Shown here one piece after another: positions 21,903 through 63,741 of a stretch of 64,000 nucleotides of DNA. Origin of the DNA: Spirochaetia bacterium. Its GTDB lineage: Bacteria; Spirochaetota; Spirochaetia; Treponematales; Treponemataceae. Position numbers and translations under genes: made by a program. Location of the stretch: NCBI GenBank assembly GCA_022768865.1, contig JALELH010000018.1, positions 44,215 through 108,214 on the forward strand, in the 5' to 3' direction. The notes beneath the pieces were generated by a model. It was not told the origin of the DNA and did no database searches. It saw only the letters and a list, made by a program, of their open reading frames with translations. Positions within the stretch are counted from its first letter, which is position 1. The number at the start of each line of letters is the position of its first letter.

Positions 21903-23102
21903 TCAGCGGTAAACATACAAAGTCGTATCAAGATTACCTGCTTTAAGTGACTTGACTGCAGTTGCTTTTTTACAGATACATTCCTGAAAATTTTTCTGAC
22001 TTGTAATCACACCCATCTGCCAGTTTTCAAAATCCACGAAAAGAGATTTCATTTCGCCGTAAAGCTCTTCTGCATCATCTTTATCCATAAGGCGTTCACC
22101 ATAAGGCGGATTGCAAAGAAGAAGTCCGGTTTCGTATGGAGCATGAATGTCCTTAAAATCGCTTTGAACAAAATCAGGACGTTCAATCCTTAAATCACTG
22201 CCAATAAGCTGCAGTGCACGCCCGGCCATTACGCAGGCATGTTCCGCATTTAACCTGGACCGCTCAACAGCAGCATTATCAATATCGCTGCCTGTAATAC
22301 GGCATTCTACATCAGTGCGGATTTTTGACGCCTCTTCTTTTTTTATTTCCATTGCCTGCCTTGAATCATAAATTACAAGATTTTCGTAAGCAAAACGTCT
22401 GCCTAAACCAGGTGCAATGTTGTGTGCATAAAGTGCGGCTTCTATTGCAATAGTTCCGCTTCCGCAGAAAGGATCGTGCAGGGGAGTCTTTCTGCGCCAC
22501 ATCATTTCCTGTAAAAGAACTGCAGCCGTAGTTTCACGAAGCGGTGCAATTCCTCCGTCTGTCCTGTAACCGCGCTTATGCAGGGCTTCTCCGCTTGTAT
22601 CAAGAAGAATCGATGCAACATTTTTATCAAGATAAACACGCACATCGCAGCTTTCACCGGTTTCCGGCATGGAAGCCATGTGCCATACATCGCAAAGTTT
22701 CGTGTAAATGGATTTTAAAATCATGGACTGAATGCTGTGTTCGCTGTTCAGCTTGCTTAAATGCACGCGCACTTTATCTACAACAACACGGACAGTTTTT
22801 TTAAGGTAATCCTGCCAGTTGATTTTATAGCAGCCTTCAAAAAGTTCATCAAAATTATAAGCCTTGTATTCTGCCAGCTGAATGTAAATGCGGTCACTTG
22901 TCCTGAGGCAATAATTTGCACGATACATTGCATCAAGATCACCGCTAAAAGTTACGCGCCCTGGAGCATGCCTGTCTATAAGAGAATAACCCAGATGTTT
23001 AATTTCATTGCCAAGTATTTTTTCTGCACCAACAGCACAGAGTGCAACATAAGTCATTTTAGCCGCCTGTAAAAATATAAATCTATTATGACATTTTAGC
23101 AT
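21903..23102 (-). CDS. THUMP-domain class I SAM-dependent RNA methyltransferase (RlmL/YpsC-like)
   Basis: DPFCGSGTIAIEAALYAHNIAPG, LLCNPPYGERL; the true start is probably MTYVALCAVGAEKIL at about 23057. Confidence 0.92.
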   Translation of the reverse strand: MLKCHNRFIFLQAAKMTYVALCAVGAEKILGNEIKHLGYSLIDRHAPGRVTFSGDLDAMYRANYCLRTSDRIYIQLAEYKAYNFDELFEGCYKINWQDYLKKTVRVVVDKVRVHLSKLNSEHSIQSMILKSIYTKLCDVWHMASMPETGESCDVRVYLDKNVASILLDTSGEALHKRGYRTDGGIAPLRETTAAVLLQEMMWRRKTPLHDPFCGSGTIAIEAALYAHNIAPGLGRRFAYENLVIYDSRQAMEIKKEEASKIRTDVECRITGSDIDNAAVERSRLNAEHACVMAGRALQLIGSDLRIERPDFVQSDFKDIHAPYETGLLLCNPPYGERLMDKDDAEELYGEMKSLFVDFENWQMGVITSQKNFQECICKKATAVKSLKAGNLDTTLYVYR

Positions 23103-23203
23103 TTTTTGTAAAGTCTGTCTTTGCCCTATAAAATATTTCTTTTACTTTTTTTGCTTTTATGAGTGCCGTTCATTTTTTCACTGGAATTACAAAACAGCCT
23201 TTA

Positions 23204-23226
23204 CAAGAACTTCGAAGAAGTTCTTG
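23204..23226. repeat. Short perfect hairpin CAAGAACTTC-GAA-GAAGTTCTTG
   Basis: 10-bp perfect stem; related hairpins at 62015-62038 and 63471-63495; half-copy at 42859-42868. Confidence 0.75.
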
Positions 23227-23315
23227 GGGGAAAAACGCCGAAAGCTGGCGTAAGTAAATACAATTTTAGAAACTTTTATCCGCTAAAACTTTCGCCATTT
23301 CGGCGGCTTTTCCCC
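23226..23315. repeat. Inverted-repeat element with nested hairpin
   Basis: GGGGGAAAAACGCCGAAA (23226-23243) versus TTTCGGCGGCTTTTCCCC (23298-23315), with inner GCTGGCG/CGCCA and TTTTAG/CTAAAA pairs. Confidence 0.65.
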
Positions 23316-23318
23316 TTT

Positions 23319-23454
23319 GTGAACCTAGTTCACATTTTGTCTTTGTGAACACAGTTCACATGTACATGTGAGTGTCGTTCACATGCGCGTGTGAGTGCTG
23401 TTCACATGCGTTAAAGAACATGGTTCACATGTATTGGTGACTGGCACTCTTTTT
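23319..23454. repeat. Phased palindrome array, copy A (six GTGAAC-N3-GTTCAC-like sites)
   Basis: Sites start at 23319, 23345, 23368, 23391, 23414 and a degenerate one at 23437 (steps 26, 23, 23, 23, 23); the last ~55 bp are identical to copy B. Confidence 0.85.
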
Positions 23455-23566: not shown

Positions 23567-24331
23567 ATGAAGCAAAACAATGACTATACTGTAATTTACA
23601 GTGATGACGACGTTGTCGTCTTTAATAAAAGAAGCGGACTCCTGATTGCAGCTGACAGATACGATGCAGAAGCACCACGCCTTGATGTGGCTGCAGAAAA
23701 AGAATTTGGACGTCTTTTTGCAGTTCACCGTATAGACAAGGATACCAGCGGACTTGTAATTTATGCAAGAAATCCGGAAGCCCATAAAGCCCTTTCCAAA
23801 CAGTTTGAAAAACGAACGGTAGCTAAAACCTATCACTGCCTTGTAAAAGGTCACCCAACCTGGGATAATCTGAACATTGACTTACCTTTACAGCCAGACG
23901 GAGATGACCGCCACCGAACAGTCGTTAATAAAAGATTTGGAAAGCCGTCTAAGACTTATTTTGAAAATCTTGGCAATTGCGGACCATTTTCATGGATTAT
24001 CGCAAAGCCGCATACAGGAAGGACACATCAGATCAGGGCACATCTTCAGTCAACTGGTTTTCCTATTGTTTGTGACCCCTTATACAGCGGAAACCAGCAT
24101 CCTGTTTTACTAAGTGATTTTAAACGCAAATACAACGGTGATTTACTTGACGAACGTCCTTTGTTAAACAGACTTGCCCTTCATGCTTATTCCCTTGAAA
24201 TAAATCACCCAAAAACAAACGAACGACTATTATTCAAGGCTCCTTATCCACGGGACTTAGAAGCAGTTCGTAAACAGCTGTCCAAACTATTTAAAATAGA
24301 CCCTTTAGGACAAAAGACGGATGAATGCTAG
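23567..24331 (+). CDS. RluA-family RNA pseudouridine synthase
   Basis: AVHRIDKDTSGLVIYARN, HTGRTHQIRAHLQSTGFPIVCDPLY. Confidence 0.94.
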   Translation: MKQNNDYTVIYSDDDVVVFNKRSGLLIAADRYDAEAPRLDVAAEKEFGRLFAVHRIDKDTSGLVIYARNPEAHKALSKQFEKRTVAKTYHCLVKGHPTWDNLNIDLPLQPDGDDRHRTVVNKRFGKPSKTYFENLGNCGPFSWIIAKPHTGRTHQIRAHLQSTGFPIVCDPLYSGNQHPVLLSDFKRKYNGDLLDERPLLNRLALHAYSLEINHPKTNERLLFKAPYPRDLEAVRKQLSKLFKIDPLGQKTDEC

Positions 24332-42792: not shown

Positions 42793-42885
42793 ATTTTTCC
42801 ATTATAGCGTTGTCAGTCTTTTTTTTCCATCTGTTTATTTACCGCCGGAACGCTTTTACAAGAACTTCATGGCAAAAAAACCTTG

Positions 42886-42999
42886 GTGAACATGCTTCAC
42901 TTTTTTATTTTGGTGAACATGGTTCACATGTACATGTGAGTGCTGTTCACATGCGTTAAAGAACATGGTTCACATGTATTGGTGACTGGCACTCTTTTT
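42886..42999. repeat. Phased palindrome array, copy B (five GTGAAC-N3-GTTCAC-like sites)
   Basis: Sites start at 42886, 42913, 42936, 42959 and a degenerate one at 42982 (steps 27, 23, 23, 23); same orientation and near-identical 3' part as copy A. Confidence 0.85.
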
Positions 43000-63364: not shown

Positions 63365-63495
63365 AAAAAGCACTTGTTTTCTTAGATGCCGGTACCTCCT
63401 TAACTTTTTGCGCAAGAATGCACAAAAGCAATTGTTCCACTAGATGCCTGTACCTGTAATAACTTTTGTGACACGAACTTCTCTGAAGTTCGTGT
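63365..63495. repeat. Two-unit degenerate tandem repeat (~58 bp) ending in a perfect hairpin
   Basis: AAAAGCA.TTGTT....TAGATGCC.GTACCT...TAACTTTT in two units (TAGATGCC at 63383 and 63441); ACACGAACTTC-TCT-GAAGTTCGTGT at 63471-63495. Confidence 0.65.
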
Positions 63496-63741
63496 AAAGG
63501 CAGTATTTGTAATAAACAGCAATTCTTGTATGGGCGCTTTAGGGGATAGTTTACTATTTTTGAAAAAAACGCTGAAGAAAACAAATACAAAGCTGCATAC
63601 AGAAATAACCGCGTTTTTTCTGTATGATGTTAAAAGAAATTTTTTTATTATTTTGCAGAACATAATTTAAAAAGGTTATAATAGGGCGAATGTCGAACTT
63701 TAGAATAAAATGAAAGGGTATTTAATTTCACTCCTGTCCAA

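Follow-up and report, generated by a model that had tools for sequence, protein, structure and literature searches.

ParB/parS, Noc/NBS and MatP/matS each pair one DNA-binding dimer with palindromic sites dispersed on the chromosome, and HU proteins are usually regarded as weakly specific architectural proteins. Burroughs et al. are said to have predicted in 2017 (Cell Cycle) that HU-Ig/HU-HIG expansions in Bacteroidetes act against mobile elements. BrickBuilt of Porphyromonas gingivalis is described in PMC4596501 as an intergenic 23-nt tandem unit without spacers, present in 19 copies with varying unit number and leader/tail flanks; in the same text its authors regard it as a MITE, non-autonomous, with IS5-like TIRs and promoter activity. 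The shortest copy, BrickBuilt_14 (84 nt), adjoins PGN_0872, which is listed there as a PF00216 DNA-binding protein (PMC4596501). The partner proteins that we propose below belong with the HU-Ig and HU-HIG proteins (PF14848, PF14734, PF18291), a group that includes BVU_2165 (4fmr) and T. denticola TDE_2259; a passing mention of the latter (PMC12724145) is the only one of a PF14848+PF14734 protein in the literature that we searched. Our literature search, which covered mainly openly accessible papers, found no report of a DNA site for these proteins and none of a pairing of HU-Ig genes with arrays, and priority cannot be claimed.

The window analysed here is a stretch of 64,000 nucleotides from a Treponema-like genome (assembly of 2.75 Mb in 125 contigs, 89.9% complete), and it contains two phased palindrome arrays, copies A and B (Table 1). 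When the site starts of copy A were re-read (23319, 23345, 23368, 23391, 23414 and 23437), they gave the spacing of 26, 23, 23, 23 and 23 bp claimed by the initial annotation, with the site at 23437 degenerate. Its other structural claims also held: alignment of the two copies shows a single clean 23-bp gap, so that copy A is copy B plus one unit, and both domain matches and strands agree with a position of copy A between divergent rlmL-like and rluA-like genes. Read another way, the repeat alternates GTGA-N7-TCAC palindromes with TCAC-N8-GTGA ones, the N8 (ATGTACAT, TAACGTTA) being itself palindromic.

Table 1. Features of the two arrays and their surroundings in the window
Feature	Position	Strand	Domains
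Gene to the left of copy A, divergent: RlmL-like RNA methyltransferase	21903..23102	-	PF01170/PF22020/THUMP
Hairpin modules flanking copy A: CAAGAACTTCGAAGAAGTTCTTG, then GGGGAAAA..CGCCGAAAG..CTTTCGCC..TTTTCCCC	23202..23318	.	
Copy A: GTGA-N7-TCAC, six imperfect 15-bp palindromes spaced by 23 bp (26 bp between the first two)	23319..23451	.	
Gene to the right of copy A, divergent: RluA-type pseudouridine synthase	23567..24331	+	PF00849
Truncated remnant, at copy B, of the flanking module of copy A	42851..42885	.	
Copy B: array of copy A minus one 23-bp unit, between divergent Fe-hydrogenase-like and DUF2400 genes	42886..42996	.	

The arrays stand out clearly from the composition of the window. 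Allowing up to two mismatches, GTGAACNNNGTTCAC has 11 matches in the window as opposed to 1.7 ± 1.3 in shuffled versions, and 0 of 100 shuffles reached 11. GTGA-N7-TCAC occurs at seven sites, with three pairs exactly 23 bp apart, as compared with 0.5 sites and 0 pairs at 23 bp in 100 dinucleotide shuffles. Within the range of 15–34, the strongest lag in the window is 23 (0.68 at position 23343), with every other lag at ≤0.57. A CRISPR array was rejected as an identity for the locus, as the palindromes are tandem with 7–8-bp intervals, where unique spacers would not fit. One element of the initial annotation did not survive, namely the alignment of all sites on one DNA face: at 10.5 bp per turn, 23 bp corresponds to 2.19 helical turns, each unit advances by about +69 degrees and five steps make almost a full turn, and in relaxed B-DNA the window sites therefore do not share a face.

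In its own genome the window motif forms ~11 dispersed arrays (C16, C33 (two), C41, C47, C73, C88, C92, C98 (two) and C111). Since divergent genes flank both copy A and copy B, these could be taken for an ordinary operator cluster that serves the flanking genes and is bound by an unrelated repressor. The ~11 arrays, however, are distributed over five divergent, five tandem and one convergent intergenic regions without a clear promoter preference, and such a cluster would leave the linkage to HU-Ig genes described below unexplained; we give this explanation hardly any credence. Beyond this genome the motif is missing from nearly all congeners. When the specific window pattern was searched for in 60 genomes, the own genome was the sole match, and the generic phase pattern matched six of 200 genomes of the genus, with exact arrays in only two of those six.

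In many copies of the window motif, one side bears two additional hairpin modules. The modules of copy A recur, in either orientation, beside arrays on C88, C41, C47, C16 and C92, and the same modules also accompany an array of another motif on C16. Similar modules (GGCAAAAAGC.., ACGAACTTCTCTGAAGTTCGTG) are found without a palindrome array at 63370–63500 of the window.

To look beyond the genus we used a generic pattern, TCAC-N8-GTGA-N7 with a period of 23, in which nothing beyond TCAC/GTGA and their 23-bp phase is fixed (20 bases) and which holds no protein information. In GTDB genomes it was found at 65 loci, against ~0.2 expected from base counts. These loci belong mainly to Bacteroidota and Treponema, and some single matches in other phyla may be due to chance or be unrelated. 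The N8 is species-specific, with TCGTACGA in Tenacibaculum and AGCATGCT, CGCATAAG and TAACGTTA at other loci. Clustering of the ORFs around the 65 loci and the own arrays yielded one outstanding recurrent family, present at 18 loci: a two-domain protein with HU-DNA_bdg (PF14848) and Ig-like DUF4469 (PF14734), here called HU-Ig. A profile built from this family detected it at 16 of the 65 loci, and 15 of these have the array on the 3′ side of the gene, −8 to 239 bp away.

We define the HU-Ig type by an N-terminal HU/IHF-like domain (PF14848 or PF18291) and a C-terminal Ig-like DUF4469 domain (PF14734). Profile searches with the family matched IHF/HU (E ~4e-6) and, over nearly the whole length, 4fmr (2.7e-60). 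The AlphaFold2 model of the protein encoded on C47 has two domains and is confident at the residue level (pLDDT 90.6), their mutual placement being less sure (pTM 0.65), and its best fold match is again 4fmr, the structure of BVU_2165, a putative DNA-binding protein from B. vulgatus. The own genome contains 20 DUF4469 genes. Parabacteroides gordonii (G224) has 21, together with ~60 PF00216 matches, a very large expansion of the HU family. Two other affiliations were considered and rejected: three HU-Ig proteins had no PADLOC match to a known defence system, and a single-sequence query with the C47 protein returned no relative in IMG/VR that would point to a viral origin.

The linkage was also seen in the reverse direction, with HU-Ig genes fetched by protein family regardless of the surrounding DNA. 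A clear phased array with a period of 22, 23 or 24 bp accompanies 43 of the resulting 79 loci, a count not fully independent of the preceding one, since some loci are in both data sets and some are orthologues; the other 36, including 10 of the 20 in the own genome, have no clear array at the threshold used. We define the class by a 22–24-bp phased array within ~250 bp of a HU-Ig gene. Among HU-Ig loci with an autocorrelation of at least 0.60, 35 peak at lag 23, and the other lags mostly reflect low-complexity tracts. Outside the own genome the array is 3′ of the gene in 33 of 33 cases, with a start between −31 and +115 bp relative to the stop codon, and almost every HU-Ig locus inspected in P. 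gordonii or Marinifilum breve has its peak at lag 22–24, just past the gene. In the own genome all ten linked arrays are 5′ of the gene (8–818 bp); eight of them lie ≤160 bp from one of the 20 gene starts, where 0.1 would be expected (P ~2e-13). An unbiased 400-kb sample of P. gordonii contains ten arrays, five of them at HU-Ig/HU-HIG genes (Poisson P ~2e-9), and five of the six such genes in the sample have an array. Array linkage extends to HU-HIG proteins (PF18291) as well. Canonical HU genes were rejected as partners, as strong PF00216 loci are mostly without arrays and weak, HU-HIG-like loci often have them.

A census of ~0.83 Mb of the own genome found ~24 places at lag 22–24, as against six at any other lag between 14 and 40, most of the six being coding or simple sequence; extrapolated from this sample, there may be ~80 arrays genome-wide. 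In a congeneric genome, a 19-unit 23-bp array (TAATTTAGAGCACCTCTAAAGCA) lies directly 3′ of a HU-Ig gene (L195:1811-2265), and in it the unit variants GAGCAC and GAGCGC are interspersed. Perfect 4-bp and 8-bp repeats were also observed near HU-Ig genes of two further genomes, G069 and G096 (L177:2741-2860 and L178:2300-2420), and are possible phase-variation tracts.

Dyad symmetry exceeds the array's own 99% null in 30 of the 43 gene-linked arrays. Palindromic units transcribed next to a gene would form hairpins, and the arrays sit immediately beyond the stop codon or immediately ahead of the start. This would suit a role in the HU-Ig mRNA, whose 3′ or 5′ UTR would then contain tandem hairpins that act in termination, stability or autogenous control. 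RNA hairpins should, however, favour G-T over A-C mispairs, and on the gene-sense strand the two are about equal (268 versus 285; 179 versus 215 in the 3′ arrays). There is therefore no RNA-hairpin (G.U) signature, and the pattern is that of double-stranded protein sites. Moreover, gene-free copies occur in any orientation, including in divergent intergenic regions, and the window has no Rfam match. A function as RNA thus appears very improbable.

The palindromes of most HU-Ig paralogues differ from one another. Gene-linked units of the own genome include GGGAGCTATTCCCACTGTATTGT, GGGTGTAATGATTACACTTACGA, GCATATGC, CGGTATA, GTTACTTAA..GTAAC, TTCCTCATATTGTGAGGAA and TCCACTGTAAGTGGA, and motifs are equally diverse between paralogues in other genomes. 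Related paralogues can have half-sites in common, as do L170 and L173 (GAGGAA) and, with a 24-bp period, L226, L232 and L234 of P. gordonii. The GTGA half-site is found with several separate protein clades (nine changes on the tree), and across genera the motif is therefore no guide to the identity of the protein. Some units recur away from HU-Ig genes: for the C89, C76 and C18 motifs, gene-linked and gene-free arrays match within the own genome, and the same holds in Tenacibaculum, TD116, Im510, Rs511 and Kf353. Copies A and B are arrays of the gene-free type, no HU-Ig gene being present in the window around them. For some motif families, such as AGTCTCCC, the sampled part of the own genome contains no gene-linked copy. 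Three AGTCTCCC/GGGAGA-like arrays were noted in the own genome (L280:13818 on C111, L294:2813 on C72 and L301:17688 on C16), with no HU-Ig gene within 2.5 kb of them in the sample.

The gene-free copies bear on another reading, in which the arrays would be non-autonomous elements of a MITE-like or REP/BIME-like kind, mosaics of hairpin modules and a minisatellite spread by transposition, whose linkage to HU-Ig genes would be secondary, for example if HU-type proteins were needed for them to move. Copies of the window motif are indeed intergenic, have recurring hairpin modules on their flanks and vary in unit number, as between copies A and B. With their 23-nt tandem repeat, several intergenic copies and flanking modules in place of leader and tail, they have these features in common with a BrickBuilt-type MITE, and BrickBuilt, a 23-nt minisatellite with IS5-like inverted ends (PMC4596501), looks like a known relative. 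Unlike the arrays studied here, it is described in the accessible text of that paper without a dyad, a partner protein or a second motif family; when its consensus AGAYCATARTATCCTCTCRTRTG, taken from PMC4596501, is joined in tandem, it contains the perfect palindrome TCTCATATGAGA across the unit junction. The extragenic palindromes in mosaic clusters also recall REP/BIME elements with RAYT, from which the window-motif arrays differ in their strict tandem period and in the linkage to HU-Ig genes. Membership in that class was rejected, as the assembly (89.9% complete) has no PF01797 (Y1) match, whereas 5 of 14 control genomes do; instead of the hundreds of REP-like copies that would have spoken against the initial annotation, there are ~11 arrays and no detected Y1/RAYT transposase. 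A single spreading element would also be hard to reconcile with a fixed place by the gene (either 5′ or no more than 115 bp away on the 3′ side) and a different motif for each paralogue, or with the C69 motif, which is limited to its own gene and to the related C87 gene, where it differs by two mismatches. We consider primary spread as mobile elements unlikely, while movement of the gene-free copies by some transposase is compatible with the explanation that we favour.

On this explanation, which we regard as probable from the sequence data, each array would serve as the platform on which a dedicated HU-Ig protein binds, its units being candidate sites. Each HU-Ig paralogue would have its own 22–24-bp palindromic unit, present in ~3–19 repeats right next to its gene; in some families the unit would recur in gene-free arrays elsewhere. 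One dimer would bind each unit, and cooperative assembly of neighbouring dimers along the array would produce a local nucleoprotein structure, which could feed back on the protein's own gene and bend or mark other loci, with possible effects on expression or nucleoid structure. The multi-operator or nucleoprotein nucleation site envisaged at the outset is thus consistent with the DNA-level dyads, the strict 22–24-bp unit and the linkage to HU-like genes, and has to give up its one-face alignment.

We take the HU-Ig protein encoded on C47, or its 83% identical counterpart on C49 (L156), as the candidate partner of copies A and B. At 743 bp upstream of the C47 gene lies a composite element that has the GTGA units and flanking modules of the window arrays; the region upstream of the C49 gene ends at the contig end. 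This link, the weakest in our explanation, is one of adjacency, and chance could produce it at this distance with a probability that we put very roughly at 10–40% (our own estimate, from ~11 arrays and 20 genes). Other gene-linked arrays of the own genome are usually nearer their gene. In PWM comparisons, the match of copies A and B to ten gene-linked motifs of the own genome was not above the null; the C47 array is too irregular for the PWM model, and its match to copies A and B comes from reading the units. We lean towards the C47/C49 protein as the partner, and hold the general pairing of arrays with HU-Ig genes with higher confidence.

Collectively, our results suggest an arrangement that may be analogous to ParB/parS, Noc/NBS and MatP/matS in its dispersed palindromic sites and proposed dimer binding, and that differs from them in the HU fold, the tandem 22–24-bp phasing and the many paralogues per genome, each with its own motif. 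More tentatively, Bacteroidota and Spirochaetota might possess a system, so far undescribed and quick to diversify, with as many as dozens of HU-fold paralogues in a genome that bind private arrays, some with an additional gene-free network, as parallel, sequence-specific chromatin-like marks. If so, these marks would perhaps serve nucleoid organisation or the distinction of self from invading DNA. The linked arrays provide a predicted target for many HU-Ig/HU-HIG paralogues, through which the specificity, the autoregulation and the role across the genome of these proteins can be put to direct tests. The arrays also offer a way to explain 23-nt minisatellites such as BrickBuilt.
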